A program made the translations under genes and the position numbers. A DNA stretch of 34,320 nt from contig SIRX01000185.1 of NCBI GenBank assembly GCA_004563715.1, positions 1-34,320 of the forward strand, read 5' to 3'. Source of the stretch: Actinomycetota bacterium (GTDB taxonomy: Bacteria; Actinomycetota; Rubrobacteria; Rubrobacterales; Rubrobacteraceae). Positions 2,941 through 30,000 of this stretch are shown piece after piece; position 1 is the stretch's first letter; each line of letters begins with the position of its first letter. Below the pieces are notes generated by a model. That model searched no databases and was not told the origin of the DNA. It saw only the letters and a program-made list of their open reading frames with translations.

Positions 2941-3041
2941 TGCCGGGTGAGCAGAACCGCGACGACCCAGCCTGTTGACGACCCCGGTGTCCTCATTGAG
3001 AGAGAAGAAGGACCCCCGGATGGGGGCCGCGGCGAGGCGTG

Positions 3042-4400
3042 ATGGCCGTAGTGCCGATCTTCGCGGTGATCTTGTTCCTGATCTCCGTCAACGCCCTGTA
3101 CGTTGCGGCGGAGTTCGCGGCGGTCGGCGCGCGCCGCGCCCGGGTGCGGGACCGGGCCGAGGAAGGCGACCGGCTGGCGCGCCAGTTGCTGCCCGTACTC
3201 GAGGACCGCGCCCAGCTCGACCGGTACATCGCGGCGTGCCAGATCGGCATAACGCTCTCGAGCATCGTCGTCGGCTTCTACGGTCAGGCGCAACTCACGC
3301 CCCTCGTGAGCCCGCTCCTGGTCACCCTGGGGTTCGGCGAGAGGGTTGCCACCTCGGCGGCGGCGACCGGCCTGCTTCTGGGGCTCACCTTCGGGCAGGT
3401 GGTGCTCGGGGAGTTGTTTCCGAAATCCCTAGCCATCCGCTACCCGGAGCGGATAGCGCTCGCCACCATGCTGCCGATGCGCTGGTCGCTCGTGGTGCTC
3501 GGGCCGTTTATCGCGGTGCTGAACGGCTCCGGGCTCTTCCTGATGCGCGTGCTGGGGCTCCGGGCCGGGGCGGAGCACCGCAACGTACACTCGCCGGACG
3601 AGCTCGAGATGCTCTTCCGGGAGAGCGCGCGGGGAGGCCTGATCGACGCCGGGGAGCGCGAGATGCTCGAGAACGTGCTGCATCTGGAGGAGCGGGTCGC
3701 GCGCCAGGTGATGGTCCCCCGAAACCGGCTCGTCGCCGCGCCGCTCGAGACCCCGCCCGGGGAGCTTCTCACGAGGCTCGTCGGCTCGCCGCACACCCGG
3801 TTCCCGATTTTCGACGGCAACATAGACAACATCGTCGGCATGGTGCACCTGCGCGACCTCTACCTCTTCGCGCGTGAGAACCCGGGGGGCGGCGACCTCG
3901 ACGAGATCCTGCGCGAGGTTCCCCTCGTACCGGAGTCCACGCCCGTCTGGGAGTTGTGGCGGAAGATGGGCGAGCAGCGCAGCTACGTTGCGGTTATCTT
4001 CGACGAGCACGGCGGCACCGCTGGGATGGTAACGGTCGAAGACCTCGTCGAGGAGGTCTTCGGCGAAGTACGCGACGAGTTCGACCTCGAAGAACCCGAT
4101 ATGGTCCGCGAGGACGACTCCGGGCGCACCCGCCTCCGGGGTGACATGCTGGTCCCGGTGGCGAACAGCCGCCTCCTGCTAGACCTCCCCAAGGAAGCCG
4201 ACACCGTTGGCGGGCTCGTGCTGGAGCGGCTCGGGCAGCCGCCCGAGGTCGGTGACGAGGTCGCCGTCGGCGGCACGAAGCTGCGCGTCGAGGCCGTGCG
4301 TGAGGGCGGCGTCGAGGAGGTCAGCGTCCGGCGGCCCGACCGGCCAGCGGACGAGGCCCTCTACCAGCCTCCGGACGGCCCGGGAGATGACGAGGGATGA
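3042..4400 (+). CDS. CNNM/CorC-family membrane protein (DUF21-CBS-CorC_HlyC), copy 1
   Basis: This inner-membrane protein of about 452 aa belongs to the family linked to Mg2+ efflux and divalent-cation homeostasis and often annotated as hemolysin. The N-terminal DUF21 transmembrane domain (about 1-190) begins with LFLISVNALYVAAEFAAV and carries the conserved GELFPKS near residue 125, part of the ion path. A CBS pair follows (about 210-330), from VMVPRNRL through the second CBS segment, then FDEHGGTAGMVTVEDLVEEV and a C-terminal CorC_HlyC transporter-associated domain. CBS pairs in this family bind Mg-ATP. GTG at 3039 directly precedes the ATG at 3042; I chose the ATG. The ribosome-binding site is weak (GCGAGG). 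The stop codon overlaps the next start as ATGA, so the two copies should be made together and may form a heterodimer. Confidence 0.92.
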   Translation: MAVVPIFAVILFLISVNALYVAAEFAAVGARRARVRDRAEEGDRLARQLLPVLEDRAQLDRYIAACQIGITLSSIVVGFYGQAQLTPLVSPLLVTLGFGERVATSAAATGLLLGLTFGQVVLGELFPKSLAIRYPERIALATMLPMRWSLVVLGPFIAVLNGSGLFLMRVLGLRAGAEHRNVHSPDELEMLFRESARGGLIDAGEREMLENVLHLEERVARQVMVPRNRLVAAPLETPPGELLTRLVGSPHTRFPIFDGNIDNIVGMVHLRDLYLFARENPGGGDLDEILREVPLVPESTPVWELWRKMGEQRSYVAVIFDEHGGTAGMVTVEDLVEEVFGEVRDEFDLEEPDMVREDDSGRTRLRGDMLVPVANSRLLLDLPKEADTVGGLVLERLGQPPEVGDEVAVGGTKLRVEAVREGGVEEVSVRRPDRPADEALYQPPDGPGDDEG

Positions 4401-5776
4401 GCGAAGTCCTTCTGCCGCTCCTGGTCGTCGCGTTCCTCATTTTGATAAACGGGCTGTTCGTCGCGGCCGAGTTCGCCATCGTGGGGGCGAGCCAGACCCG
4501 GGTGGAGGGGCTCGCCGAGGGTGGGAGCCGCTCGGCGCGCTACGTGCGGCGCGTGCTCGAGAACCCGTCCAACCAGGATCGCTACATCGCCATAGCCCAG
4601 TTCGGGATAACGCTCGCGACGATCGGCCTCGGTATGTACGGCGAGCCGGCTATCGCGGGCTGGCTCTACGGCCCGCTCGAGGAGGGGCTCGGGATAGGGA
4701 CGGCCCTCGCCCACACGGTAGGCACGGTCCTCGCGGTCTCCGTAATGACCTACTTCCACGTCGTTATCGGGGAGATGATCCCGAAAGCCCTCGCGATCCA
4801 GACGCCGGAGAAGACGGCCCTCCGGGTCTCGCCGGCGATAAGGATCGTCGGGCTCGTCTTTCTCCCGGCGGTCGCGCTTCTCAACGGGGTCGCAACCGGG
4901 CTGCTGAAGCTCCTGGGGGTGCCGGCCGCCGGGGAGGCGACCCAGTTCTACTCGCCCCGGGAGCTGGAGCATCTCGTAGAGGAGAGCACCGAGGGGGGGT
5001 CTCTCGAAAAAGACCAGCAGCGCCTAATCTCGGGTATCTTCGACTTCAGCGAGCGGGAAGTCCGGCAGGTGATGACGCCACGTACCCGGGTGGTGGGCGT
5101 GCCGCTCGAAAGCGGTCCCGAGGATATAGAGCAGACTATCCGGGAGTCCAAGCACACCCGCCTGCCGGTCTACAACGGCGACCTGGATCACATAGTGGGC
5201 ATCCTGCACGTGAGGGACTTTATCCAGTGGCAGCTCCAGAGTGGCGGCTTCGGGGACGAAAGCTCCGGAGACCCAGACGCCGGCTTCGACCTCGGAGACC
5301 TGATCCGGCGCGCCCCGCGGCTGCCGGAGAACACGCCGGCGGACCGGCTGCTCGAAGCCTTCGAGCGCCTCAGGGTGCACATGGCGGTCGTCATGGACGA
5401 GTACGGCGGCACCGCGGGTATCGTGACTATGGAAGACTTGATCGAGGAGGTCGTGGGTGAGATCCGCGACGAGTTCGACCGCGGTGAGGAGCCGGAGCTC
5501 CGGACGCTCGCCGACGGGAGCGTGATCGCCGACGGCCTGGTGCTGCTCGAAGAGATAAACGAACGCTACGGAACGAACCTCGACTCGGAGGAGTTCGACA
5601 CGCTCGCGGGCCTGATGATCCAGGAGCTCGGCCGCCCGCCAGAGGAGGGCGACGTGGTCCAGGTGAACGACACCCGGCTCGAAGCGGCGCGCGTCGAGGG
5701 GCTCGCGATCTCCCGCGTCAAGGTCGTCCCCGCCCCCCGGGACCCTGAAAACCAGGGGCCGGAGAGCGGAGAGTAG
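4397..5776 (+). CDS. CNNM/CorC-family membrane protein, copy 2
   Basis: This 459-aa paralogue has the same order of domains as its upstream neighbour: DUF21 membrane domain (about 1-190; LFVAAEFAIVGA at its start and GEMIPKA at 125-131), a CBS pair (about 215-340; VMTPRTRVVGVPL), MDEYGGTAGIVTMEDLIEEVVGEI, and a C-terminal CorC_HlyC domain. The predicted role is divalent-cation (Mg2+ or Co2+) transport or homeostasis. The substrate cannot be read from sequence. Its ATG overlaps the previous stop by four bases (ATGA), behind GAGGG, which indicates translational coupling. Compared with copy 1 it has an insertion between the CBS repeats (QSGGFGDESSGDPDAGFDL). Its last 59 bp overlap the convergent oxidoreductase gene on the other strand. 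Confidence 0.92.
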   Translation: MSEVLLPLLVVAFLILINGLFVAAEFAIVGASQTRVEGLAEGGSRSARYVRRVLENPSNQDRYIAIAQFGITLATIGLGMYGEPAIAGWLYGPLEEGLGIGTALAHTVGTVLAVSVMTYFHVVIGEMIPKALAIQTPEKTALRVSPAIRIVGLVFLPAVALLNGVATGLLKLLGVPAAGEATQFYSPRELEHLVEESTEGGSLEKDQQRLISGIFDFSEREVRQVMTPRTRVVGVPLESGPEDIEQTIRESKHTRLPVYNGDLDHIVGILHVRDFIQWQLQSGGFGDESSGDPDAGFDLGDLIRRAPRLPENTPADRLLEAFERLRVHMAVVMDEYGGTAGIVTMEDLIEEVVGEIRDEFDRGEEPELRTLADGSVIADGLVLLEEINERYGTNLDSEEFDTLAGLMIQELGRPPEEGDVVQVNDTRLEAARVEGLAISRVKVVPAPRDPENQGPESGE

Positions 5777-9413: not shown

Positions 9414-12125
9414 TTACAGCAAGCCGAGCTTGCGTGCGCGAGCCACCGCTTCGGTGCGGCTACGAACTCCCAGCTTGCCGAAGATTTTCCGGTTGTGTCC
9501 CTTGACGGTATCGAGAGCGAGGAAGAGACGGCCCCCGATCTCAGCGTTCGAGAGGCCTTGGGCGATGAGCCGCAGCACCTCCAGCTCGCGCGGGCTCAAC
9601 GGCTCGACGAGGGGCTGATGGAGCTCGTCTTCGCTCTCTCGCTCTCTGGCGTCGAACGCGGCCAGCAGCCGGCCCGTGTAGCCCGGCGTGATCCCGCGAG
9701 AGGCCGCCTCGGAGAGTAGCCGAGCCATCGGCGCGCCTTCGTCCACGAAGGCCCTGACGTAGCCCTCGGGCTCGGCCAGCTTCAGGGCGCGTCCCAGCGG
9801 CGCGAGGGCGTGGGGGAGGTCGTCCCGCGCCTCGTGGGCGAGCGCCTGAAGCACGAGGATCTCGACGACGCTTCCCGTACGCTCTCCCTCTTCGGCCGCT
9901 CGCCGCAGGCGCTCCAGTAGCCCCACTGCCTCGCGGACGAGGTGTTCTTTCCTTTCGTTCTTGTAACGAGCGATGAGAACTCTGGCGAGGGTGATGTGCT
10001 CGAACTCGCGCAGGTAAGCGAGGTCGTCGCGGTCGGAGAGGCCCCGCTCGCGCGCCCAGTCCGAGGCTTCGTCCAGCCTGCCCTGCCTGATCCGCACCCG
10101 CGCCTTCAACGCCGCGATGGGACGCACGTCGGGGTCGGGACTCTCGATATGCCAGCGCTCCGCCTCGTCGAGCAGGTCGAGGGCGGCGTCGAGGTCTCCT
10201 TGCGCCTCCTTGATCCGCGCCATGGCGACGTACCAGCGATAGCGCGTCTCCGGTAACCCGACGTGCTCGCCCAGCTCCTTGCTTCTCATCAGAAGCTCCG
10301 TGGCGGCTTCCAGATCGTTGCGCTCGCGGTGCAGCTCACTCAACCCCACATACAGGTCCGTCGTTCCCCAGACAAGCCCGCCATGCTCCTCCACAATCCG
10401 CAATGACTGCTCGTAGGTTCTTACCGCCTCGCGCAGACGTCCTTGCGCTATCCTGATGTCCGCCAAGATATGTGCGCCGACTATCTGGAAACGGGTGTGG
10501 CCCGCCGCCTGCTGATGAGCCACACCTTCGGCAAAGCTCCGGTAGGCTGCTTCGAGGTCTCCGAGAGTCCAGTAAGCGATCCCCAGTAGCGCGGCGGCGG
10601 CTCCACGCCACAGGTGGTCGTCCCCGGGCAAGAGTTCGAGCGCCCGCCGGGCATGGTCCGAAGCTCCGAGCACGTCGCCCAGCGCCCCGGCATGGTAGGC
10701 CCGGGCGATGGCGATCGTTCCCGGCAGAGACCTGAATGCCACCTGGTCCACGACGACCATCTCGACCGAAGAGGCTTCCTCTTTCTCGCCCGTTTCCACC
10801 GTTGTATCGAGCCACCTTTCGGCGTCCCGGAGGCGGACGGCGACGGCTTCGAAGCCGCGGCGACCGAAGAGCGTGAAAGCGTAGTAGACGCTGAGCACGG
10901 GCCGGGTGGCGACCAGCTCGTTGGGCAGCGCCTCCAGCCAGCCAAAAAGCGTGTCCTCCCGACCACTACCTAGCATTTCGAGCGCCGCCGGCTCGACCAG
11001 GTCTGCTGCCCGCCCGAAGTCCCCGGCGGCCAGCGCGTGGCGAATGGCCTCGGAGGACAGACCGTTCCGCTCGTACCACTCGCTCGCCCACCGGTGCAGC
11101 GCCGGTGCCTGATCCGGCCGCTCCCTCATTAAATGCGCCTGGAGAACTTCGGCAAAGAGGTGGTGGTAGCGGTACCACCGGCGCTCGTCATCCAGCGGGA
11201 CGACGAACAGGTTGCCCCGCTCCAGGGCCTCCAGGGTCCTGCTACCACCTCCCTGGCCGGTGAGAGCATCGCACAGCGGGCCGCTCAACCGGTCGAGGAT
11301 GGAGGTCTGCATCAGGAAGGTACGGATGCTTTCGGGCTGACGCCGGAGGACCTCCTCGACCAGATAGTCCAGGACGTAGCGGTTGTCCCCGGCGAAAGCC
11401 CCGATAAAAGCGGAGGTGTCCTCTCTCCCGCGCATCGAGAGCGCGGCCAGTTGCAGGCCGGCGATCCAGCCTTCGGTGCGGCTCTCCAGCGCACCGACTT
11501 CCTCCACCGAGAGGCCGAGGCCCATCACGTCATTGAGGAACTCGGCGGCTTCGCCGGGAGCAAAGCGCAGGTCGGCGGCGCGCAGCTCGGTCAACTGGCC
11601 CCGGGCGCGTAGCCGGGCGAGGAGCAGGCGTAGGTCTTCCCGGGTGGCGATTACCAGGTGCATCCGCGGCGGCAGGTGCTCGATCAGGAAGGTGAGAGCA
11701 TCGTCCACGGCCCCGGCATCAATAACGTGGTAGTCGTCGAGGACGAGGAAGAAATCTTCCTCGACGGTGGATATCTCATTGAGTAGGGCCGTCAGAAGCG
11801 ATTCGGTCGGCGGCGGTTGAGGGGATCGGAGCGCACTCGACGCCGCTTCTCCGATATCCGCCGCAACCGTCTGCAAAGCGGTGACTAGATAAACTAGAAA
11901 GCGGGTGGGGTCGCTATCCTCTTCGTCCAACGACAGCCAGGCAACCGGTCGACCGCAACCGGCGGCCCACTCGCCCAGCAGCGTGGTCTTGCCGAAGCCA
12001 GCGGGGGCGGAGACGAGGGTGAGTTTCCGGCCCTCGTTCATGCGCTCGATCAAACGCGGCCGAAGCACGGCTCCGGCCTGCGGCGGAGGGACGAAAAGTT
12101 TCGTGGTCAAAACCGGCGTGGACAT
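9414..12125 (-). CDS. LAL (MalT-type) LuxR-family ATP-dependent transcriptional regulator, copy 1
   Basis: This 903-aa regulator is a STAND NTPase of the LAL class, in which ATP and a small inducer usually trigger self-association and promoter activation. Order: a short N-terminus (TTKLFVPPP), Walker A SAPAGFGKTT at 39-48, Walker B FFLVLDDYH near 130, an ARC-type region (RTEGWIAGLQLAALSM), a winged-helix region (RWYRYHHLFAEVLQAHL), TPR-like helical repeats (about 430-800) that should bind the inducer, and a C-terminal LuxR helix-turn-helix (SPRELEVLRLIAQGLSNAEI then TVKGHNRKIFGKLGV). The inducer is unknown. ATG 12125 has no Shine-Dalgarno. TACTCT lies 11 nt upstream, so the mRNA is probably nearly leaderless. 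It is a close paralogue of 13570-16308, with near-identical ATPase DNA but a different recognition helix. It probably controls the membrane genes downstream. Confidence 0.94.
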   Translation of the reverse strand: MSTPVLTTKLFVPPPQAGAVLRPRLIERMNEGRKLTLVSAPAGFGKTTLLGEWAAGCGRPVAWLSLDEEDSDPTRFLVYLVTALQTVAADIGEAASSALRSPQPPPTESLLTALLNEISTVEEDFFLVLDDYHVIDAGAVDDALTFLIEHLPPRMHLVIATREDLRLLLARLRARGQLTELRAADLRFAPGEAAEFLNDVMGLGLSVEEVGALESRTEGWIAGLQLAALSMRGREDTSAFIGAFAGDNRYVLDYLVEEVLRRQPESIRTFLMQTSILDRLSGPLCDALTGQGGGSRTLEALERGNLFVVPLDDERRWYRYHHLFAEVLQAHLMRERPDQAPALHRWASEWYERNGLSSEAIRHALAAGDFGRAADLVEPAALEMLGSGREDTLFGWLEALPNELVATRPVLSVYYAFTLFGRRGFEAVAVRLRDAERWLDTTVETGEKEEASSVEMVVVDQVAFRSLPGTIAIARAYHAGALGDVLGASDHARRALELLPGDDHLWRGAAAALLGIAYWTLGDLEAAYRSFAEGVAHQQAAGHTRFQIVGAHILADIRIAQGRLREAVRTYEQSLRIVEEHGGLVWGTTDLYVGLSELHRERNDLEAATELLMRSKELGEHVGLPETRYRWYVAMARIKEAQGDLDAALDLLDEAERWHIESPDPDVRPIAALKARVRIRQGRLDEASDWARERGLSDRDDLAYLREFEHITLARVLIARYKNERKEHLVREAVGLLERLRRAAEEGERTGSVVEILVLQALAHEARDDLPHALAPLGRALKLAEPEGYVRAFVDEGAPMARLLSEAASRGITPGYTGRLLAAFDARERESEDELHQPLVEPLSPRELEVLRLIAQGLSNAEIGGRLFLALDTVKGHNRKIFGKLGVRSRTEAVARARKLGLL

Positions 12126-13569: not shown

Positions 13570-16308
13570 CTATATCAACCCCAGCTCCGCGGCGCGTCTG
13601 ACGGCTGCCCGGCGACTCTTGACGCCGAGCTTGCGATAGATGCTCTTGGTATGGGTGCGGACGGTGCTCAAGGCGACCACGAGCTCATTGGCGATCTCCG
13701 GGCCGGAGAGTTCGGTTCCGAGCAATCGGAGCACTTCGAGCTCGCGCCTGCTTAGAGACTCGATCGGGGGCTGCGAAGCGGGAGAGGCGGGGAGAGGAAG
13801 TTCGCCCCCATTCCTCCGGGCCTCAGCTTCGAATGCTGCCAGCAGCTTGCCTGTATAGTCCGGCGCGATCCCGCGGGCGGCCGCTTCGGAGAGTAGCCGC
13901 GCCATCGGGGCGCCTTCGTCGATGAAGGTCCGGACGTAGCCCTCGGGCTCGGCCAGCTTCAGGGCGCGTTCCAGCGGCGCGAGAGCCATAGAGATGTCGC
14001 CCCGCGCCTGGTGAGCGAGCGCCTGCAGCACCAGGACCTCGATGACGCTACCCGTACGCTCACCTTCTTCCGCCGCTTCGAGGAGGCGATCCAGCAGTCC
14101 CAGTGCCTCGTGGATGGAGCGTTCTGTAAGGCCACTCTCGTATCGGGTGATGAGCACCCTCGCCAGGGTAATGTGCTCGAACTCGCGCAGGTAGCTTAGG
14201 TCGTCGTTGGGGGAGAGGCCCCGCTCGCGTGTCCAGTCGAGCGCTTCACCCAGCCTGCCCTGCCGGATCCACATCCGCGCCTTCAGCGCGGATATGGGAC
14301 GCACGTTGGGGTGGTAGTCGCTTACGTATAGGCGCTCTGCCTCGTGGAGCAGTTCGAGGGCGCCGTCCAGATCTCCTTGAGCTTCCCGTATTCGGGCCGT
14401 CGCCACGCGCGAGCGATACGGGTTTTGCGGTAGCCCGGCGCGCTCGCCCTGCTCTTTGCTTCTCAGTAGGTGTTGTGTTGCCGCGTCCAGATCGTTCCGC
14501 TCACGGTAGAGTTCGCTCATTCCCACGTGCATGTCCGCCGTTCCCCGCATTGTGGGGTCGCCCTGCTCTTTTGCGAGCTGTAATCCCCGCTCGTAGGTAC
14601 GCATCGCCTCGCGGAGACGACCCTGCGCGATCCGTATAACGGCCAGGGCGATCGCGCACCCGATTGCGTCCGAGACGTTACCGGCCGCCTGCAAGTGGGC
14701 CATGCCACCGGCATACGTCCGGCGTGCTGACTCGAGATCCCCGCTCGCCCAGTAGGCGAGCCCCAGGAGGCCCGCTGCCGCTCCGCGCCCGAGATGGTCG
14801 TCTTCAGCCATGAGGTCGAGCGCCCGCAGGGCGTATTTCACGGTGTCTGGTACGTCCCCCCGTGCCAGGGCGCTTGCGGCCCGGTACACGGCGATCGAAG
14901 CCGGGAGACGGCGAAATTCCTCTTCGTCAACGACGACCATCTCAGCAGATGGGGGTTCCGGTCGCGCAGGGTTTGCCGCCGTGTCCAGCCACCTTTCGGC
15001 GTCCCGCAGTCGGGCGTGTGCGCCCTCGATCTCGCCGCCAAGCAGCAACGCCCCGGCGTACCCCACACTGAGTACGGGCCTTGTGTGGAACAGTTCGTCG
15101 GGGAGAGCCCTCAGCCAGCCCAGCAACGTGATCTCCTGCCTACTCTGGCGCATGGCTGGCACTGCCCGTTCGACCAGGGCCGCCGCCCGCCCGAAGTCCC
15201 CGGCGGCCAGCGCGTGGCGAATGGCCTCCTCCGGCAAACCCTCCTGCTCGTACCACTCGCTCGCCCGCCGGTGCAGCGCCGGTGCCTGATCCGGCCGCTT
15301 CTCCATCATACGCGCTTGCAGAACGTCCGCGAAGAGGTGGTGGTAGCGGTACCACCGACGCCTGTCATCCAGCGGGACGACGAACAGGTTGCTCCGCTCC
15401 AGGGCCTGCAGGGTCCTGCTACCACCTTCCTGGCCGGTGAGGGCGTCGCACAGCGGCCCGCTCAACCGGTCGAGGATGGAGGTCTGCATCAGGAAGCTCT
15501 GGACGCGTTCGGGCTGGTGCTGGAGGACCTCTTCTACCAGGTAGTCCAGCACGAATCGGTGGCTGCCGGTGAAAGATTCTATGAAACCGGCGGTATCTGC
15601 CCGGCTCCGCATCGAGAGCGCGGCCAGTTGCAGGCCGGCGATCCAGCCTTCGGTGCGGGCTTCCAGCGCAGAGATGTCTTTCTCTGAGAGGCTTAGACCC
15701 ATCACCCCTCCGAGGAACTCGGCGGCTTCGGAGGGGGTGAAGCGCAGGTCGGCGGCGCGTAGCTCGGCCAGTTGGCCCCGGGCGCGCAGGCGAGCCAGGG
15801 GCAGGCGCGGGTCCTCGCGGGTGGCGACTACCAGGTGCATGTTTGGCGGCAGGTGCTCGATCAGGAAGGTGAGAGCATCGTCCACGGCCCCGGCATCAAT
15901 AACGTGGTAGTCGTCGAGGACGAGAACGAAGTCTTCCTCGACGGAGGAGACCTCATTGAGCAAGGCCGTCAGAAGTGATTCGGCCGGCGGGGGCTGGGGG
16001 GATTGGAGCGCACCCGACACCCCTTCTCCGATATTTGCCGCAACCGTCTGCAAAGCGGCGACTAGATAAACCAGAAAGCGGGTGGGGTCGCTATCCTCTT
16101 CGTCCAGCGACAGCCAGGCAACCGGTCGTCCACAACCGGCGGCCCACTCGCCCAGCAGCGTGGTCTTGCCGAAGCCAGCGGGGGCGGAGACGAGGGTCAG
16201 CCTGCGTTGCAGGTTCTCGTTCAGGAGCTCTACCAGGCGGGGGCGGAAGACGACTTCAGGCCTGGGAGGGGGGACGTAGAGCTTGGTGTTCAGTATCGGT
16301 GTGGGCAC
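13570..16308 (-). CDS. LAL (MalT-type) LuxR-family ATP-dependent transcriptional regulator, copy 2
   Basis: This is a 912-aa LAL regulator with the architecture of copy 1. Walker A SAPAGFGKTT is at 41-50, Walker B FVLVLDDYH is near 132, and the ARC and winged-helix segments follow (TEGWIAGLQLAALSM; RWYRYHHLFADVLQARM). TPR-like repeats run to about 830, and a LuxR helix-turn-helix closes the protein (SRRELEVLRLLGTELSGPEI then TVRTHTKSIYRKLGV). The recognition helix differs from copy 1 (STVRTHTKSIY against DTVKGHNRKIF), so the two probably read different sites. The DNA for the ATPase core is nearly identical, including an 80-nt perfect match (15845-15924 with 11668-11747). Start is GTG 16308, no Shine-Dalgarno, with TACACT 11 nt upstream. 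The inducer is unknown. The likely targets are the 90-aa and membrane genes downstream. Confidence 0.94.
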   Translation of the reverse strand: MPTPILNTKLYVPPPRPEVVFRPRLVELLNENLQRRLTLVSAPAGFGKTTLLGEWAAGCGRPVAWLSLDEEDSDPTRFLVYLVAALQTVAANIGEGVSGALQSPQPPPAESLLTALLNEVSSVEEDFVLVLDDYHVIDAGAVDDALTFLIEHLPPNMHLVVATREDPRLPLARLRARGQLAELRAADLRFTPSEAAEFLGGVMGLSLSEKDISALEARTEGWIAGLQLAALSMRSRADTAGFIESFTGSHRFVLDYLVEEVLQHQPERVQSFLMQTSILDRLSGPLCDALTGQEGGSRTLQALERSNLFVVPLDDRRRWYRYHHLFADVLQARMMEKRPDQAPALHRRASEWYEQEGLPEEAIRHALAAGDFGRAAALVERAVPAMRQSRQEITLLGWLRALPDELFHTRPVLSVGYAGALLLGGEIEGAHARLRDAERWLDTAANPARPEPPSAEMVVVDEEEFRRLPASIAVYRAASALARGDVPDTVKYALRALDLMAEDDHLGRGAAAGLLGLAYWASGDLESARRTYAGGMAHLQAAGNVSDAIGCAIALAVIRIAQGRLREAMRTYERGLQLAKEQGDPTMRGTADMHVGMSELYRERNDLDAATQHLLRSKEQGERAGLPQNPYRSRVATARIREAQGDLDGALELLHEAERLYVSDYHPNVRPISALKARMWIRQGRLGEALDWTRERGLSPNDDLSYLREFEHITLARVLITRYESGLTERSIHEALGLLDRLLEAAEEGERTGSVIEVLVLQALAHQARGDISMALAPLERALKLAEPEGYVRTFIDEGAPMARLLSEAAARGIAPDYTGKLLAAFEAEARRNGGELPLPASPASQPPIESLSRRELEVLRLLGTELSGPEIANELVVALSTVRTHTKSIYRKLGVKSRRAAVRRAAELGLI

Positions 16309-16366: not shown

Positions 16367-17974
16367 TTAAAGCCGGCCCGATCGGATAATGCCGACGAGG
16401 AGTGCCAGACCCAGGATGGCAGCGAAGACGAACCCGATGAGGCCGAAGACGCTGACCCCCAGGACGCGCACGCCGGCCTCGGCAAAGATGCCGAGCATGG
16501 AGGAGCCCACGATCAGGGCGGCGATGAGCAGGGCGAAGACGAGCCGGTTGGCGAGGATGTCCACCTTGGAGATCAGGTCGTCCAACCCCCCGTGCTGGAA
16601 GCGGACCTCGATCTCGCCGTCTTTCAGCTCTCCGAGCAGGGCGTGTATCTGGCGCGGGTAGTCGGCGTAGGTGTCGGGCTGGGCGAGCCGCCGGGCGGTG
16701 CGGGCGGCCACGTAGGCCGGGTCGCGGTAGCGGGATATTGTGGCCTCCGCCGCTTCCGCCGCCACGACGGTCCCGACGTGGCGCGTTCCCGGGCGGCCTT
16801 TTTCGGAACCCTGCCCGAGCTGCTCGGCGGCCACGAGCGAGGCCATCAGCTGGGGAACCTCCGTCTGCAGGCGGGTGTCGCCCCGGCGCAGGGCGTCCAG
16901 GCTGCGGTCCCGGATCTCCTCCAGCGAATGCTCCGGCCAGAGCGGGCCGCCGAGCGCGCCGAGCGCCTCGCGCAGCTCGCGACGCAGGGCGGAAGCTTCT
17001 TTGGGCACGGCGGCTCCGGCGAGCCGCAGGCTGCGCTCCGTGCCGTCCACGTCGCCCCGCCGCACGGCGGCCAGGATCTCGGCGAGGCCCCGCAGCCGCT
17101 CCGGGTCGAGGGCGAAGATCTCGGTCGGGTCCGCGAGCCAGACCTCGCCGTCTGCGGCCACGAGGCGTTCCGGTGCGGGGTTGGCGAGAAAGATTCCTTC
17201 CTCGATGGCGAGCCGCACGAGGGCCTCGGAGGCTTGCCGGTACTGGCCTTCCTCCGGCGGTCCCGGGAGTTCGGGGGCCTCGAAGGTTATGCAGCGGGCG
17301 GTGGAGTAGTCCCGGTAGACCTCCGGGACGCGCAGGCCGAAGCCGTCCATCTCGCGCAGCCGGCGGGTGGTCTGGGCGGTAAAGTGCATGTCCCGCCGGT
17401 GGGCGACGTGGGCCACGAACTCCGAGACCATCTCCGAGGGGTCGAGCGGGAGGCGGTCCCCGATCCGGCGCCGCACCAGGTCGGCCACCGGCCGCATCGC
17501 CAGCAGGTCGCCCCGCACCCCGGGCCGGGCTACCACCACGAGCGCCGCCCGCCCGCCCGGCAGCACCGCCCGGTGCGCCTGGGTAAAGGAATCCACCCGC
17601 TCGGGCCGCTCCTCGAAGACCGGAAACAGCCGCTCCAGCGTGTTGCCCAGGTCCCGCTCGACGATGGCCCGGACCGCCGGTGGCGCGTCGGGCTTAGGGG
17701 GCGCGGAGGCCCGGGCCAGCTCCGCGGCTACGTCAGGCGGCAGCAGGTCGCGCCGGGCGGCGAGAAAGTAGCCCAGCTCGACGAAGTTCGGACCCAGCTC
17801 CTCGAACGAGCGCCGGAGCCGGTCCCCGACCCGTCCCGGCTCCGGCCTCCGGCGGCGGCCCACGGGCCGCCGGAACACGAAGCCGAACCCGTAGCGCGCC
17901 CCGACCCGCGTGATAGCCGCCACCCGCCGGGCCGCCCCTTCCGGGAGCCCCCGTGTAATCCTCTGAAAGACCAC
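16367..17974 (-). CDS. ABC1/UbiB/AarF-like membrane protein, apparent pseudokinase
   Basis: This protein of about 535 aa has the layout of the UbiB/ADCK atypical kinase family: an N-terminal extension, a kinase-like core, and two C-terminal helices (LVFALLIAALIVGSSMLGIF and VFGLIGFVFAAILGLALLVGII). Landmarks align, but catalytic residues are replaced. LGPTFxKxGQ-type becomes LGPNFVELGYF. The AVKV lysine becomes Val (ALVVVARPG). The HADPHPGN loop becomes LANPAPER. DFG becomes DPT. It therefore probably cannot phosphorylate or hydrolyse ATP in the known way and may act as a scaffold or lipid-binding protein. I place the start at GTG 17974: TATGCT lies six bases upstream and FQRITRGLPEGAARR then follows as in the family. 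The longer frame to 18067 would overlap the divergent glyoxalase gene's leader and has no start signal. Confidence 0.8.
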   Translation of the reverse strand: MVFQRITRGLPEGAARRVAAITRVGARYGFGFVFRRPVGRRRRPEPGRVGDRLRRSFEELGPNFVELGYFLAARRDLLPPDVAAELARASAPPKPDAPPAVRAIVERDLGNTLERLFPVFEERPERVDSFTQAHRAVLPGGRAALVVVARPGVRGDLLAMRPVADLVRRRIGDRLPLDPSEMVSEFVAHVAHRRDMHFTAQTTRRLREMDGFGLRVPEVYRDYSTARCITFEAPELPGPPEEGQYRQASEALVRLAIEEGIFLANPAPERLVAADGEVWLADPTEIFALDPERLRGLAEILAAVRRGDVDGTERSLRLAGAAVPKEASALRRELREALGALGGPLWPEHSLEEIRDRSLDALRRGDTRLQTEVPQLMASLVAAEQLGQGSEKGRPGTRHVGTVVAAEAAEATISRYRDPAYVAARTARRLAQPDTYADYPRQIHALLGELKDGEIEVRFQHGGLDDLISKVDILANRLVFALLIAALIVGSSMLGIFAEAGVRVLGVSVFGLIGFVFAAILGLALLVGIIRSGRL

Positions 17975-17986
17975 CCCGAAAGCATA
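17975..17986 (-). promoter_or_regulatory. Possible leaderless promoter of the ABC1-like gene
   Basis: TATGCT (minus strand, 17986-17981) sits six bases before the GTG start, with no ribosome-binding site between. That spacing would put transcription and translation starts at the same base. The -35 is not evident. Confidence 0.35.
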
Positions 17987-18008
17987 GCAGAGAGCCGGAC
18001 GCGCCCTG

Positions 18009-18014
18009 TAGAAT
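18009..18014 (+). promoter_or_regulatory. Possible -10 element for the glyoxalase-fold gene and downstream genes
   Basis: TAGAAT matches five of six -10 positions and lies 80 nt before the GTG start of the glyoxalase-fold gene, in the divergent region. No clear -35 is seen. It could drive the gene and the c-di-GMP enzyme behind it. Confidence 0.35.
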
Positions 18015-18093
18015 GCGCCCGAGCGAGGAAACCAGCAAGCCAGAGCCACGCGTCGCCCGGTCCGCAAGCGGGCCGGGCCGGGAAAGGAGCGCC

Positions 18094-18474
18094 GTGCAGT
18101 ACGTACACACCTGCTACCGGGTACTCGACCTGGAGCGGAGCAAGGAGTTCTACCGGGACAAGCTGGGGCTGGAGCTGGTGCGCGAGAGCCCCGTCGGGGG
18201 TGACGCCACCAACGCCTTTTTCGGCGTCCCCGGCGACCCGGAGCCGCGCCTGGAGTTGACCCTCAACCACGGCCGCGAGGAACCCTACGCTCTGGGCGAG
18301 GGCTACAGCCACGTCGCCTTCGCCGTCGCGGACCTCGACGCGCTCGCCGAAAGGCTGGAGCAGGCCGGCGGCGTGGACTTCGAGAGCAAGCCGCACGCCA
18401 TGAGCAGCGGGACCCGTCTCTTCTTCGTCCGGGACCCCGACGGCTACCGCATAGAGTTCATCGAGCGGCGGTGA
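18094..18474 (+). CDS. VOC-fold metalloenzyme, glyoxalase I-like
   Basis: This 126-aa protein matches lactoylglutathione lyase (glyoxalase I) in length and motifs. That enzyme isomerises the thiol hemiacetal of methylglyoxal. The four expected metal ligands are present: His in QYVHTCYRV, Glu in RLELTLNH, His in GYSHVAFAV and Glu in YRIEFIER. The paired beta-alpha-beta-beta-beta units are also visible (DLERSKEFYRDKLGLELV; DLDALAERLEQAGG). The cofactor thiol is uncertain, because actinobacteria often use thiols other than glutathione. I chose GTG 18094 because AAAGGAG lies four bases upstream. An in-frame ATG at 18013 overlaps a -10-like TAGAAT and has no ribosome-binding site. The c-di-GMP enzyme starts 33 nt after the stop, so the two may share a transcript. 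Confidence 0.88.
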   Translation: MQYVHTCYRVLDLERSKEFYRDKLGLELVRESPVGGDATNAFFGVPGDPEPRLELTLNHGREEPYALGEGYSHVAFAVADLDALAERLEQAGGVDFESKPHAMSSGTRLFFVRDPDGYRIEFIERR

Positions 18475-18507: not shown

Positions 18508-20613
18508 ATGAGCGCTTCGCTGCGGGTCCTGATCGTGGAGGACTCCGAAGACGATACCCTGCTGCTGCTGCGCACGCTGCGGCAGGGGGGCTACGAGCCG
18601 GAGCACGAGCGGGTCTCCACCGCCCTGGAGATGGAGACCGCCCTGGAGGAGCGGGAGTGGGACGTGGTCATCTCCGACCACTACCTGCCGCGCTTCGACG
18701 GGTACGGGGCGCTCGGGCTCGTGCGGAACCGGGGGCTCGACGTGCCGTTTATCGTGGTCTCGGGCACGCTCAGCCAGCGGCGGGCGGTGGAGATGATGCG
18801 GGCCGGGTCCGACGACTTCCTCTCAAAGAGCGACCTCTCCCGGCTTACGGCGGCCATCGCGCGGGAACTGCGCCAGGCGGAGGTGCGGCGCCGGCGCCGG
18901 ATGGCGGAGGAGGAGCTGCACAACAGCGAGCAGCGTTTCCGGGCCCTGGTGCAGAACGCCTCGGACATTATCACGCTCGTGGGGGCCGACGGGACCATCC
19001 GCTACCAGAGCCCGGCCGTCGAGCGGGTGCTCGGCTACAGCCCGGAGGAGATGACCGGCCGGGACGCCTTCGCCTACGTCCACCCGGAGGATGCCAGCGA
19101 CCTGCGTGGCATCCTCGTCGGAGACCTGCGCGAAGCCGGCAGCGGACGCCGGGTGGAGATCCGGGTCCGCCACCGGGACGGCTCCTGGCGGTACCTGGAG
19201 GCCATCGCCAACAACCTGCTCCACGAGCCGGCCGTGAACGCGGTCGTGGTCAACTCCCGCGACATTACCCGGCGCAAGACCCTGGAGGAGCAGCTCGCCC
19301 ACCAGGCGTTTCACGACCCGCTCACCGGCCTCCCGAACCGGGCGCTGCTCATGGACCGGCTGCAGCAGGCGCTGGCCCGCCGGAGGGAGGGCGACCACAC
19401 CGCCGCCGTGCTGTTTATGGACCTGGACCATTTCAAGCTCGTCAACGACTCGCTGGGCCACGACCTGGGCGACAGCCTGCTCGTGGCGGTGGGCCGGCGG
19501 CTCGTGGACGCGGTACGTTCGGGCGACACCGTGGCGCGGCTGGGGGGCGACGAGTTTACCGTGCTGCTGGAGGACGTAAACGGCCTCGGGGGGGCTATCC
19601 GGGCCGTGGAGCGGATCACGAAGAAGCTCTCCGAGCCTTTCGAGGTGGACGGCAACCGGCTCTTCGTGACGGCCAGCACGGGCGTCGCCCTCGGGGTCCG
19701 CAAGACGGACGGCCCCCAGGAGCTGCTGCGCCACGCGGACGTGGCGATGTACCGGGCGAAGGCCGCCGGCGGGGACCGCTTCGAGGTCTTCGAACAGGGT
19801 ATGGGGCTCGGGCTCCGGGAGCGCATCGAGCTGGAGAAGGACCTCCGCCGGGCCGTCGCGGGCGAGCAGTTCCGGCTCCACTACCAGCCGAAGGTCCGCC
19901 TCGAAGACCGCCGCGTCATCGGCCTGGAGGCGCTGGTGCGCTGGGAGCACCCGACAAAGGGCCTCATCTCCCCGGCGGAGTTCATCCCGTTCGCCGAGGA
20001 GACCGGTCTAATAGTGCCCATCGGCCGGTGGGTGCTCGGGGAGGCGTGCCGCCAGGTCCGCGAGTGGCAGGAGCGTTTCGCGGGCGGCACCCCTCTCGGC
20101 GTCGCCGTCAACCTCTCCGCCCGGCGTCTCAGGCAGCGCGAGCTGGTCGAGGAGGTCGAAGAGGTCCTGGAGGAAACCGGCCTCGACCCCACCTGCCTGG
20201 AGCTGGAGATCACCGAGAGCATGGTGCTCGGAGACCTGGAGTCCGCCGTCGCCGCCCTGCGCCGGCTCAAGGACCTGGGGGTGCGCGTCGCGGTGGACGA
20301 CTTCGGCACCGGCTACTCCTCTCTGAGCTACCTCGAAACCCTTCCTGTGGACACCCTCAAGATAGACCGCTCCTTCATCCGCAAGCTCGACCGGCACGAA
20401 AAGGGCGCGGCGATCGTGGAGGCCGTGATCTCGCTCGCCGCCATCCTGGATCTGGAGGTCGTCGCCGAGGGCGTGGAAGAGCCCTGGCAACTGCGCCGCC
20501 TGCGCGCGATGCGCTGCCACCTGGCCCAGGGCTATCTCTTCTCCCGCCCGCTTCCACCCGAAGAGACCGCGCGCCTCCTCTCCCGCTACGCCGGAGGTTC
20601 GGCCATCCGCTAA
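18508..20613 (+). CDS. REC-PAS-GGDEF-EAL c-di-GMP synthase/phosphodiesterase
   Basis: This 701-aa cytosolic response regulator turns over cyclic di-GMP. The REC domain (about 5-125) has acidic pocket VEDSEDD, phospho-acceptor Asp57 (SDHYLP) and SKSD lysine. The PAS domain (about 140-265) ends in DGSWRYLE and RDITRRK. In the GGDEF domain (about 275-430), GGDEF at 346-350 is intact, and RSGD at 337-340 stands five residues before it, the inhibitory product-binding I-site. In the EAL domain (about 445-690), EAL at 474-476, DDFGTGYSS from 597 and AEGVE are intact. Both activities are therefore possible, and the partner kinase is probably one of the hybrid kinases nearby. ATG 18508 follows a 14-nt duplication of the start region. 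No terminator separates it from the pseudopilin genes that follow, consistent with c-di-GMP control of pili. Confidence 0.95.
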
Positions 20614-24078: not shown

Positions 24079-27000
24079 GTGACTAGGATGCTGAGCGGCA
24101 AACGGATACTGCTGGCTGGGGTGGCGCTGGCTGTTTTCTACTGGCTCTTCGAGACCCTCGTCGTAGACGTCTTGATCTTCCGGGAGGGCACGGTCGCCGA
24201 CCGGTTGTTGCCTCCTCCGGCTGAGGAGGGGCACGAGCTGTGGATGCGGCTCACGACGGTGGCCTTGATCTTGGGGTTCGCCGGGGTGTTGCAGGTCCTG
24301 TCTAACCGGGACGAGCGGCGGCGGGCGGCGCTGGGGGAGAGCGAGGCCCGTTTCCAGGCGGTGATAGATACGGCGCCGAACGCGATCGTCACGATTGGAC
24401 GTGATGGCCGGATCCGGTCGTTCAACGCCAGCGCGGAGCAGATGTTCGGCTACGCGGCGGAGGAGGCCGTCGGGGAGCCGCTGCGGATGCTGATGCCCGA
24501 GCGTTTCCGGGAGCCGCACGAGCGGGCCTTCCGCCGCTACCTGGAGACGGGCGAGGAACGCATTATAGGTCGGGGCCCGGTGGAGCTGGCCGGGCTGCGC
24601 AAGAACGGCGAGGAGTTCCCCGTCGAGCTTTCTCTGGGGGAGACGGAGGGGAGAGAAGGGACGCTCTTTACCGGTGTCATCCGGGACATCAGCGGGCGCA
24701 AGCGGACCGAGAGGGAGCTGCGCGAGGCGGAGGAGCGCTTCCGCAGCGCCTTTGACGAAGCTCTTACCGGTATGTCCCTGAACGCTCTCGATGGGCGATT
24801 TTTGCGGGTCAACCGCGCCCTGTGCGAGATCCTGGGTTACCCGGAGGAGAAGCTGCTTTCCTCTACGTATCTGGACATAACGCCCGAGGACGAACGAGAA
24901 GCGGGCGCCGAGCGTGTCCAGCAGCTGATCGAAGGCCAGAACGACGGCTACACCGTCGAGCGGCGCTACGTCCACGGCGAGGGGCACACGATCTGGGTCT
25001 TCTTGAGCATCTCGCTCGTGCGGGACGCGGATGGCCGCCCGCTCTACCTGGTCACCCAGACGCAGGACATTACGGACCACAAAAAGAATGAAGAGACCCG
25101 GGCGCTGCTGGCGGCCATCATCGAGTCCTCCGAGGACGCCATCTTCAGCAAGACCCTGGACGGCACCATCACCACCTGGAACCGGGGCGCGGAGCGGCTC
25201 TACGGCTACTCCGCCGGGGAGGCCATCGGAAAATCCGTATCCATGCTCGTCCCGCCCGACCGGCCGGACGAGATCCCGGCCATCCTGGACAAGATCCGGC
25301 GGGGCGAGACCGTCAGCGGCTACGAGACCGAGCGCGTGACCCGCGACGGCGCGCGGCTGAACATCTCGCTGGGCGTCTCCCCGATCCGGGACGCGGCGGG
25401 CAGGATCGTCGGCGCCTCGACCATCGCCCGCGACGTGACCGCCATAAAGCGGGCCGAGAAGACGCTCCGAATGCAGGCCACGGCGATGGAGGCTTCCATA
25501 GAAGGCATCGCCATCTTCGACAGCGAGGGTAAGATCACCTACGCCAACGAGACCTACGCCCGGATGTATGGCTACGACGGGCCGCAGGACCTCGTCGGCG
25601 AGAGCTGGCAGGCTCTCCTCGCCGAGGGCGAGGCCGAGAGGTTCGAGCGGAGCTTCGGCCCCTCGATAGCGGAGACCGGTAAGTGGTCCGGGGAGGTTAC
25701 CGGCCGCCGGTGGGACGGCAGCACCTTCCCCCAAGAGGCTTCCGCTTCCATCCTGGAGGAAGACAGCGGCTGGGTCGCCGTGGCGCGGGACGTAACCGAG
25801 CGGCGGGCGGCGGAGGAGCGAGAAGCCCGACAGAGAACCAGGGAGATGTTCCGGGCAGAGGTGGACGTTGCCCTCGGCAGTGAGGGGGCGCTGCCGGAGA
25901 TACTGCAGGGTTGCGCCGAGTCCGCGGTGCGCCACCTCGACGCGGCGTTCTTCCGCGTCTGGACCCTAAACGAAGAAGAGCAGATCTTGGAGCTACGGGC
26001 CAGTGCGGGCATGTATACCCACCTCGACGGTCCGCACGGGCGCGTACCCGTCGGTCAGTACAAGATCGGGCTTATCGCCCAGGAGAAAGAGCCGCGCCTG
26101 ACCAACGACGTTCTCCAGGACCCCCGGGTCGGCGATAAGGAGTGGGCGCGGAGAGAGGGTATGGTTGCCTTTGCCGGGTACCCGCTGATGGTCGAGGGTC
26201 GGCTGGTGGGCGTGATGGCCATGTTCTCCCGCGCCCGGATCTCCGAAGAAACCGAGGAGTTGCTCGCCACCGTAGCGGATACGGTGGCCCAGGGGATCGA
26301 GCGCAAGCAGACCGAGGTGGCGCTGCGCGAGGCCGAGGAGCGGTTCCGGGCGCTGGTCCAGAACGCGATGGACCTGATCGTGGTCCAGAGACCTGATGGA
26401 ACCCTGTCTTACGTGAGCCCCTCGATAGAGTGGATGCTGGGCTACCGTCCGGAGGAGGCAATAGGAGCCGAGGCCCGAGAATACATCCACCCCGAGGACC
26501 AGGAAGAAGCCCGCGAGGCTTTCTTCGAAACTCTTTCTGGTTCCGGTCCCCTGCAGACCAGGACCTTCCGCTACCGGCACAAGGACGGCTCCTGGCGCTA
26601 CCTCGAAGTGGTGGGCAATAACCAGCTCGATAACCCCAGCATCGGGGGCGTGGTGTTCAACTGCCGGGACGTAACCGAGCGGAGGATGTTGGAGAAGCGG
26701 CGGCGCGAGGCCGAGGAGCGCTACCGGGTGCTGGTGGAGCAGATGCCGGCCCTCGTCTACACGGAGGCCCGGGACGAATCCGGCACGACGACTTACATGA
26801 GCCCGCAGTGCATAGACATTCTCGGTTACACGGCGGAGCAGTGGACCTTCACCCCCGGTTTCTGGAAAGAGGTCGTCCACCCCGAAGACCGGGAGCGGGT
26901 GCTGGCCGAGGACGAGCGCACCCACGAGACCGGCGACCCCTTCCGGGCCGAGTACCGGGTCATCACCGGCGGCGGGCGCACCGTGTGGGTACGCGACGAG

Positions 27001-30000
27001 GCGGTGCTGGTGCGGGACGGGGGCGGAGACGGCGGTTTCTGGCAGGGCGTCATACTGGACATCACCGACCGAAAGGCGGCTGAGGAGGAGGTCCGGGAGC
27101 TAAACCGGGATCTAGAGCGGCGGGTCGTGGAGCGCACCGGGCAGCTGCGAGAGAGCGAGGAGCGCTACCGGCTCGTGGTGGACGGCTCCAACGACGGCAT
27201 CTGGGACTGGGAGGTGGACACCGGTAAACTCTACTGGAACGACCGGTTTTTCGAGGTGCTGGGTCTGTCCCGATCCGAGACCGAGCCGTCGTTCGAGCTG
27301 TTTGTGGAGCTGCTCCACCCGGACGACCGCCAGAGGGTGCTCGACGCGGTACAGGTGCACCTGGAGGAGGATGAGAGGTACGAGGAAGAGTTCCGGATGC
27401 GGCATGCCGGCGGCGGTTACCGGGAGTTGCTGGGCCGCGGCAGGGCCCTACGCGATGAGAACGGGGCCCCCGTGCGGATGGCCGGGACCGTGGCGGACAT
27501 AACGGAGCGTAAGGAGGCGGAGCGGCGGCTGCGGGAGAGCGAGGAGCGGTTCCGGTCGCTGGTGCAGAACGCCTCGGATATCATCACCGTCCTCGATCCC
27601 CACGGCGACATCCGCTACGAGAGCCCGGCGGTGGAGCGGATACTGGGCCGCAAGCCCCGGGAGCTCGAAGGTGAGAGCGCCTTCGACTACATCCACCCGG
27701 CCGACGTGGGCCGGGTGCGGGAGGTCTTCGCCGCGTTGCTGGGCGAGCCGGGCGGGACCCAAACGGTAGAGTTCCGGTTCCGGCACGCGGACGGCTCCTG
27801 GCGGTACCTCGAAGCCGTCAGCAGCAACCTGCTCGACGAGGAGAGCGTAGGGGGGATAGTCGTCAACTCCCGCGACGTGACGGAGCGCAAGAAGGCCGAA
27901 GAAGAGGTGCGGGAGCTGAACGAGAGCCTCGAAGCGCGGGTGGCGGAGCGCACCGGGCAACTGCGCGAGATCGTGGCCGAGCTGGAAGCCGCCCGCGAGG
28001 CCGCCGACGCCGCCAACAAGGCCAAGAGCGAGTTTCTGGCGAACATGTCCCACGAGATCCGCACCCCCATGAACGGGGTCATCGGGATGACGGAACTGCT
28101 GTTAGACACACAGCTCGACGCCGAGCAGCGGGAGTTCGCCCGGACGATCCGCTCTTCGGGCGAGGGCTTGCTGACGATCATCAACGACATCCTGGATTTC
28201 TCCAAGATAGAGGCCGGACACCTGAAGCTTGAGTTCGTGGAGTTCGAGCCCGGGGAGGTGGTCGAGGAGGTGGTGGGACTCCTGGCCGAGAAGGCCCACA
28301 CCAAGGGCCTGGAGCTTGCGAGCTTCGTGGAGGCCGGGGTGCCCGCGCTGGTGCGGGGCGACCCGGGCAGGCTGCGCCAGGTGCTAACGAACATCGTGGG
28401 CAACGCCATCAAGTTTACCGAGGAGGGCGAGGTGGTGGTCAAGGCCAGCCTCGCGCGCGCCGGCCACGCTACCCCCGCGGACCGGGGAGCCCATGCGGGA
28501 GCCCAGATGGTTGCGGTGCGCTTAGAGGTGCGCGACACGGGCATCGGGATGACGGAGGAGGAGCGGGGCAGGATATTCCGCTCCTTTACGCAGGCGGACG
28601 CATCCACCACCCGCCGCTACGGGGGGACGGGGCTGGGGCTCGTCATCAGCAAGCAGCTCGTGGGGTTGATGGGCGGCGAGATCGGCGTACACAGCGAGCC
28701 CGGTGTGGGCTCTACCTTCTGGTTCACCGTGGGGCTGGAGCAGCGGGAGCCGGCCCCGGGCGGCACGCCAGCGCCCCCGGGATCGAAAGCGGGGGGAGGG
28801 AATAGCGGGGAGGGTTTCCAGGAGAACCTAGAAGGGTTGCGGGTGCTCATCGTCGACGACAACGCGACGAACCGCCAGATACTGCTGAAACAGACCGCCT
28901 CCTGGGGAATGTCCTCCCGGGCTGTCGGGTCCGGTCCCGAAGCCCTGGCGGAGCTCCGGCGGGCCGCCGAGAACGGACCCTCCGGCTACCCCCAGGATCA
29001 CCCGCGCGGCTACGACGTGGCCGTGCTGGACATGCAGATGCCCGGCATGGACGGCCTGGAGCTCGCGGAGGAGATAAAGGGCGACCCCGCCATCTCGAAG
29101 ACCCGCCTGGTGATGCTCACCTCCATCGGCAACCGTCCCGGTCCCGTCAGGACCGGGGCCCTGGAGGCGGGTGTAGAAGCGTACCTCACAAAACCCGTGC
29201 GCCAGTCGGAGCTGTACAATACCCTGGTCGCGCTGGTATCCGGCGGGGCCTCGGACGCAGATGGCTCGGGAAGCACGCAGGACAGGCCCCGGCGAGACCG
29301 GCGTGGGGGAGAGGCCGCACCGTCCGGGGAGGTTGCCGGGAGCAGCCCCGCGGGGCGTATCCTGCTGGCCGAGGACAACGCCGTAAACCAGAAGGTGGCC
29401 GTAAAGATGCTCCAGAGGCTCGGTTACGAGGTAGACGTCGTTGCCGACGGGGGGGAGGCCCTGGAAGCCCTCCGAAACGCCTATTATGGAGCGGTGTTGA
29501 TGGACGTGCAGATGCCCCAGATGGATGGCTACGAGGCCACCGCCGAGATAAGGCGGCGCGAGGAACGTGTTAGCGAAGAGCGGGTGGCGCGTGTCCCGCG
29601 TGTCCCGCGTGTCCCGATCATAGCGATGACGGCCAACGCCCTGGAGGGGGACCGGGAGCGGGCGCTGGAGGCTGGTATGGACGACTATATCTCGAAGCCG
29701 GTGAAGTCCGAGGACCTCGACGCCGTTCTGAGCCGGTGGGCGGTTGCGGGCGGTCCCGGAGAGACCAGCGAGCAGGAAAAGGTTGCGGAAGAACCCGGGA
29801 AAGACCCCGCAGACCAGAACCTGCTCCAGGACTTGCAGGAGATCGGGGACGAGACCTTACTGGCCGAGATCGTGGATCTCTTTTTGGAAGACACGCCTCC
29901 GAGGCTCGCGGCCCTGCGCGAGGCCATAGAGTCGGGCGAAGCGGAGGCCCTGGATCACGCGGCCCACACCCTCCGCGGTTCCAGTGGCAACCTGGGCGCC

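Follow-up and report, generated by a model that had tools for sequence, protein, structure and literature searches.

A putative UbiB-derived pseudoenzyme clade with a dismantled ATP site in the Rubrobacteraceae

The stretch of DNA analysed here (the window, 34,320 nucleotides in all) belongs to a draft genome of 3.47 Mb in 176 contigs. Its minus strand carries a gene for an atypical UbiB-like protein, divergent from a gene for a glyoxalase I-like protein (Table 1) that matched the NCBIfam lactoylglutathione lyase models at scores under their cut-offs. Prepilin-like genes lie beyond the glyoxalase gene, and many relatives have CruF-family and CrtI-like genes on the downstream side. Besides the gene under study, the genome holds two intact UbiB-like genes (L001 and L002) and five weaker ABC1 matches, which cover the profile only in part and, from the profile range matched, look like ordinary Ser/Thr kinases.

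Table 1. Features of the window, with positions counted from its first letter.
Feature	Positions	Strand	Evidence or remark
Tandem CNNM/CBS/CorC proteins	3039..4400 and 4397..5776	(+)	Four-base overlap
Two large MalT-like LuxR regulators	9414..12125 and 13570..16308	(-)	TPR_MalT, GerE; downstream of the UbiB-like gene, same strand
Putative UbiB-derived pseudoenzyme gene	16367..17974	(-)	Open frame, 535 codons (535 aa); GTG start 17974, stop 16369-16367; ORF and translation, PF03109 E 5.2e-12
C-terminal membrane hairpin, residues 472-535	16370..16561	(-)	Hydropathy, identity by region, model helices
DFG plus the following residue, here DPTE, residues 282-285	17120..17131	(-)	Asp, Pro and Thr each 32/32; metal-binding Asp D282 kept
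Catalytic loop, LANPAPER for HGDPHPGN, residues 263-270	17165..17188	(-)	Alignment to orthologues
ExD position (COQ8A E405), here R193-R-D195	17390..17398	(-)	Glu to Arg 32/32; Asp kept 32/32
ATP-binding Lys position (COQ8A K358), here V147	17534..17536	(-)	Val 29, Leu 1 of 30; Lys 21/21 intact paralogues
KxGQ position, here E66-L-G68-Y69	17768..17779	(-)	Glu for Lys 29/29 orthologues; Lys 21/21 intact paralogues
Short divergent promoter region	17975..18093		
Extended -10 promoter-like element TGCTATGCT	17981..17989	(-)	6 bases before GTG 17974; leaderless layout
Glyoxalase I-like protein, divergent neighbour	18094..18474	(+)	PF00903 E 3.4e-24; GTG start 18094 inferred from orthologues
Response regulator with PAS, GGDEF and EAL domains	18508..20613	(+)	
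Prepilin-like genes	~20.7-21.9 kb		N_methyl motifs; flanked by the response regulator and histidine kinase frames
Hybrid histidine kinase frame	24079..30153	(+)	2024 residues, many PAS domains
Open frame of 1329 aa	30300..34289	(-)	Without a Pfam hit at E 0.001; possibly a shadow frame, the DNA being GC-rich

Judged by its sequence, the protein is a member of the UbiB/ABC1 family by descent, as a preliminary description of this DNA had it. It scored 45.9 bits against Pfam ABC1 (PF03109; cut-off 22.9), covering profile positions 13–148 of 244 only, and its profile aligned with intact UbiB (L002) and its orthologues over 520 columns at probability 100 (hhalign, profile-profile). Its score against the NCBI UbiB model, 109.7 bits, was far under the cut-off of 487.55. 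The pair of C-terminal helices described earlier was also borne out, with hydrophobic stretches at residues ~470–500 and 500–531 that are helices in the model, and the resulting hairpin resembles that of bacterial paralogues in hydropathy and sequence comparison.

Orthologues, at 57–73% identity, occur in 33 of the 39 genomes sampled from the window's bacterial family, with a readable gene in 32 and a broken one in the last. The gene is a full-length open frame in 26 genomes spanning 12 genus codes, is cut by a contig end or frame-broken in six, and is broken in R. marinus; G005, G015, G021, G028, G032 and G033 are non-carriers. Of the 22 genomes with completeness of 90% or more and contamination of 5% or less, 20 carry it, counting one broken and one contig-end-cut copy, and G005 and G015 are without it. 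Although rated at 100% completeness, G015 yielded only partial or weak ABC1 matches and not one full-length UbiB, so it is uninformative on absence of the gene. In R. marinus (NZ_CP045121.1, L047:5998-7593) the orthologue is split between several reading frames and interrupted by stops, and the intact UbiB paralogue is whole; this copy is a pseudogene or lost gene, or else a poorly read stretch. Two cut or frame-broken copies occur on different contigs in both G026 (C39, C97) and G030 (C99, C150), reflecting either duplication or mixed strains in the assembly. The protein is probably dispensable, because six of the 39 genomes lack it and the R. marinus copy is broken.

The search beyond the family covered the sampled phylum, with at most three candidates scored per genome. 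Among the matches listed for 357 other genomes of the phylum there was no such relative, the best reaching 314 bits compared with at least 839 for full-length clade members. All 13 non-family matches that were fetched (L115–L127) keep the Lys, the catalytic Asp and D-F-G or D-L-G.

All 21 loci examined (of 33 carriers) have a glyoxalase I-like gene upstream on the other strand, 101–226 bases away in 17, ~3.9–4.1 kb away in three and 1.6 kb away at a single locus with a frame-broken 5' part. Within the 17 short head-to-head regions, the promoter pattern TGnTANNNT, picked after viewing the region alignment, is aimed at the UbiB-like gene in 14, against 1.6 expected from shuffles; it is also aimed at the glyoxalase gene in seven. 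Every one of the 14 elements is followed after 6–7 bases by an in-frame ATG or GTG (worked out by hand), which we take to be the layout of a leaderless transcript. In the window, TGCTATGCT stands six bases before GTG 17974 and so supports the start site of the preliminary description.

Motif residues were tabulated from 33 orthologue rows representing 32 genomes, with gapped rows dropped per position (n = 29–32), and set against two reference groups, the intact paralogues of the family (21) and further UbiB-like proteins (20). Loci representing one record twice (for example L014 and L040) were entered once, and the broken R. marinus copy, the second G026 copy and a 26-residue G035 tail are absent from the table. 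We take COQ8A K276 to be the KxGQ Lys and N493 the catalytic-loop Asn, and these offsets agree with the alignment. For A339, K358, E405, E411 and D488 we used the COQ8A numbering in passages of PMC4718504.

The intact paralogues have the canonical letter at every one of these motif positions (21/21). In the clade, the replacements of Table 1 are joined by others: the Gln position of KxGQ holds Arg in 24 orthologues, His in three, Gln in one and Tyr in one (Tyr in the window); the Ala of the Ala-rich loop (A339), present in 21/21 paralogues, gives way to Gly in 29 of 30 orthologues and to Asp in the window protein; the alpha-C Glu (E411) is Ala in 28, Ser in three and Thr in one of 32 (T199 in the window); and the loop Asn is Arg in 32/32 (R270). 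The LLDFG of intact UbiB aligns to LADPT in the window protein. Retained positions are the KxGQ Gly (29/29), the Gln after the Ala-rich loop (30/30) and, in 28 of 32 orthologues, the catalytic Asp (D488), which is Asn in two, the window protein included, and Glu in two. D195 and D282 are invariant in the clade, and the third site Asp is usual. With D282 invariant and the catalytic Asp so widely kept, some nucleotide or metal binding may remain.

The preliminary description had called the protein one without any of the kinase residues, with the AVKV Lys, KxGQ, the HADPHPGN loop and DFG all replaced. In the window frame these motifs are indeed altered, the DFG Asp and the KxGQ Gly excepted. Losses of the ATP Lys with its Glu partner, of the KxGQ Lys and ExD Glu, of the loop Asn and of the DFG Phe-Gly stand, and the word 'any' does not, given D282 and D195 in 32/32 orthologues and the catalytic Asp in 28/32. 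The same substitutions recur in the 29–32 aligned orthologues, which together with the purifying selection described below speaks against chance. An alignment slip as the source of the losses was ruled out: the profile-profile alignment runs through the motifs, and 24 aligned orthologues contain no invariant or near-invariant Lys. We read the losses as real and fixed across the clade.

Measured by alignment against the features of a UbiB ATPase, the protein fails at KxGQ, the Ala-rich loop, the ATP Lys/alpha-C Glu pair, ExD and the catalytic loop/DFG. It also falls within a broad definition of pseudokinases, given in PMC4718504, as kinase-like domains lacking one or several conserved nucleotide-binding or catalytic motifs. 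The UbiB motifs and their role are set out in passages of the same paper, and our protein lacks most of the residues that UbiB proteins are known to require for their function. Because it is UbiB by descent yet fails the UbiB ATPase features, we class its orthologues as a UbiB-derived pseudoenzyme clade and not as UbiB kinases.

Structure prediction gave two AlphaFold2 models with mean pLDDT of 51.1 (five alignment rows) and 54.4 (13 rows, nine of them partial); the second was mostly above 70 at residues ~241–420 only, and its N-lobe is unreliable. The first ten PDB matches of the first model (Foldseek) were all COQ8A, MSMEG_1954 or Rv3197, none at E < 0.001. For the second model (VIA-align), the first 11 entries were all UbiB-family (Z 10.9–7.5, rmsd 4.6–9.1) and other kinases followed from Z 6.8 down, values to be read with the tool's warning that Z < 8 (13 for helical bundles) may mean little; model blocks within 241–420 had mean pLDDT of 51–88. 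The comparison with COQ8 and UbiB advised in the preliminary description was only partly informative: the C-lobe probably keeps the UbiB fold, and at these pLDDT values the models resolved neither the N-lobe nor the pocket.

Substitution rates were estimated by the Nei-Gojobori method from 18 orthologues and 12 paralogues. The dN/dS ratio of the pseudoenzyme gene was 0.18–0.23 in three pairs at dS 0.21–0.46, compared with 0.08–0.12 for the intact paralogue in its four closest pairs (dS 0.17–0.60); outside the quoted range lie the closest orthologue pair (dS 0.02, ratio 0.05) and a pair at dS 0.58 (ratio 0.34). Median ratios over pairs with dS < 1.3 were 0.29 (127 pairs) for the pseudoenzyme and 0.23 (66 pairs) for the paralogue. 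By this comparison the pseudoenzyme gene is under purifying selection, weaker than that on the intact paralogue. A sequencing artefact or decay as the source of the altered motifs was ruled out by the intact orthologues and the dN/dS ratios.

Identities were also compared by region in 18 genomes with both genes (153 non-independent pairs), with region borders picked after viewing the alignment; the partial or frame-broken L024, L028, L029, L035, L036, L037 and L134 were omitted here and from the trees. In the kinase C-lobe, mean identity was 0.56 among pseudoenzymes versus 0.79 among paralogues at residues 236–330 and 0.59 versus 0.82 in the second part (331–388), the pseudoenzyme being higher in 0/153 pairs both times. 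Values for the N-lobe were 0.70 and 0.69 (pseudoenzyme higher in 74/153), for the membrane-proximal stretch 0.77 and 0.69 (118/153) and for the hairpin, the clade's most conserved region, 0.77 and 0.69 (138/153). Constraint has shifted away from the kinase C-lobe and towards the membrane-proximal stretch and the hairpin. Pseudoenzyme and paralogue are 53% identical to each other in the membrane-proximal part and hairpin and ~21–22% identical in the C-lobe. In the membrane region, identity to eight UbiB proteins of other families was 35–46% for the pseudoenzyme and 29–40% for the intact paralogues. Identity between pseudoenzyme and intact UbiB did not rise within genomes relative to across genomes (0.53 and 0.53).

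Such conservation of the membrane region, and its closeness to that of the paralogue, would be expected were the membrane-side surface a working part, and for this reason we favour pairing with the intact UbiB or a membrane partner common to both. Against this stand the equal identities within and across genomes. Nor is the membrane region the sole constrained part: the N-lobe is conserved as in the paralogue, which fits a rebuilt pocket equally well.

Trees were built from 17 orthologues and 15 of the 21 intact paralogues. In the full-length tree the pseudoenzymes form a single clade (support 100/100; stem 1.55 changes per column) and the intact paralogues a separate one (100/100). This tree, which carried warnings about long branches and residue composition, places the pseudoenzyme clade beside UbiB of other families (87/71); union of the clade with the paralogue was not rejected (AU p 0.226). 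The C-terminal tree (108 columns, bootstrap not settled) instead united clade and paralogue (98/98), with intact copies nested inside the pseudoenzyme group; there too the alternative topology was not rejected (p 0.425). Compared region by region, the pseudoenzymes resemble the paralogue more closely in the membrane part, whereas their KxGQ extension and N-lobe are slightly closer to UbiB of other families. On an origin by duplication of the family's own UbiB the trees conflict, neither topology being rejected.

Most sampled members of the family keep the dismantled site alongside a normal copy, from which we infer that the protein probably works other than as the usual enzyme. We think it fairly likely that this UbiB-derived pseudoenzyme makes no use of Mg-ATP in the UbiB way and serves as a non-catalytic membrane scaffold or regulator, most likely pairing or competing with the intact UbiB. 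The kinase-like domain of this third UbiB-like protein in the genome would no longer bind or hydrolyse Mg-ATP in UbiB style, and the protein would have been retained for a non-catalytic job at the membrane, as scaffold or regulator. That it pairs or competes with the intact paralogue is our guess from the 53% identity of membrane part and hairpin. The preliminary description had suggested a scaffold or lipid-handling role from a complete loss. A dismantled site and a likely non-catalytic membrane role are supported by the fixed losses, the purifying selection and the shift of constraint; 'complete' overstates the case, with D282 invariant, the catalytic Asp in 28/32 and an N-lobe as conserved as the paralogue's.

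The same residues permit another reading, in which the protein is a nucleotide-sensing switch without catalysis that still binds nucleotide or metal through D282, usually the loop Asp, and Arg replacing Lys. Residues of this kind are at hand (D282, R193 and R270 in 32/32, the loop Asp in 28/32), the N-lobe is conserved as in the intact paralogue, and passages of PMC4718504 describe nucleotide binding in some pseudokinases. We nevertheless consider such a switch unlikely: the ATP Lys, its Glu partner and the loop Asn are all gone, the window protein has Asn at the loop Asp, and the C-lobe is less constrained than that of the paralogue.

Alternatively, the site may have been rebuilt. Glu66, Thr131, Arg193, Met196, Arg270 and Pro283-Thr284 are clade-invariant, and together with the retained Asp195 and Asp282 they could form a new pocket for another ligand (a lipid head group, carboxylate or phosphate) or support new chemistry, as in some kinase-like proteins with altered sites. 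The N-lobe bears half of the pocket, and its conservation at the level of the intact paralogue speaks for this idea, which we rate as quite unlikely.

Gene neighbourhoods bear on a further proposal, that the protein serves the synthesis of bacterioruberin, a C50 carotenoid. Of the 33 carriers, counting R. marinus with its broken copy, 22 have a CruF-family gene (PF04240) within 5 kb on the same contig, and a CrtI-like gene is present in 12 of 19 neighbourhoods. In the window genome, however, the CruF gene is on another contig; four carriers, three of them 92–99% complete, have no CruF match; the non-carriers G005 and G015 do have CruF; and wherever strand was tabulated the CruF gene is on the other strand. 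The linkage may also be plain family synteny, which alone shows little because sharing is even greater around the intact UbiB (5.36 shared neighbour families per genome pair in 17 genomes, versus 4.31 for the pseudoenzyme). The carotenoid link is weak, and a bacterioruberin role seems to us very doubtful. CruF-family and CrtI-like genes occur within a few kb of the pseudoenzyme gene in G029 (C11, C99), G004, G016 and others; in G029 a further contig holds a second pair of these genes.

That the gene is a decaying duplicate without function, as the R. marinus copy broken in several frames and a close-pair dN/dS roughly double the value for the intact paralogue might suggest, is disfavoured to the point of being hardly credible, given full-length frames in 26 genomes of 12 genus codes, clade-specific invariant residues, dN/dS of ~0.2 in close pairs and a conserved promoter.

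We return to the non-catalytic scaffold or regulator as the preferred reading. UbiB proteins belong to isoprenoid-lipid biology and their mechanism is unsettled; a dismantled paralogue that a bacterial family retains, with an intact copy elsewhere in its genomes, amounts to a natural separation-of-function experiment and offers a direct way to learn what the UbiB membrane part does without the ATPase. The clade would add UbiB to the kinase-like families that have stable bacterial pseudoenzyme clades. Among the open-access papers that we searched, no description of such a UbiB pseudoenzyme clade turned up, and the text of a 2025 review of bacterial pseudokinase families (PMC12599244) mentions none of UbiB, ABC1 and ADCK.

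Among known systems, the closest is the intact UbiB paralogue itself (L002 and orthologues), which shares 520 alignable columns, the same N-terminal extension and a similar C-terminal hairpin, usually with an R-S-x-R-L-like tail, and differs in keeping the K, KxGQ, ExD, loop Asp and Asn, and DFG (21/21). Structures of human COQ8A (ADCK3; PDB 4PED, 5I35, 7UDP, 7UDQ) are the best fold matches of the model (Z 7.5–10.9 over 215–241 residues, rmsd 6.1–8.7), but ADCK3 has all the traditional catalytic residues and is stabilized by nucleotides, by ADP before ATP, according to passages of PMC4718504. The mycobacterial ABC1 proteins Rv3197 and MSMEG_1954 (MABP-1) probably share the ABC1 fold, as far as our models tell; unlike the window protein they keep the Lys and DFG in the alignment, and PDB titles record ADP-bound structures and, for Rv3197, an AMPPNP-bound one. 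The pseudokinase domain of MviN (ActPs3 family, Mycobacterium) offers a parallel in an actinobacterial membrane protein, where a kinase-like domain with degraded motifs has a recruiting role (PMC12599244), although it stems from the Ser/Thr kinase lineage and not from UbiB. Yeast Cqd1 and Coq8 are UbiB proteins that act on coenzyme Q, a membrane isoprenoid lipid; the function of Cqd1, similarly to that of Coq8, needs the core kinase-like and UbiB motif residues (PMC8346625).
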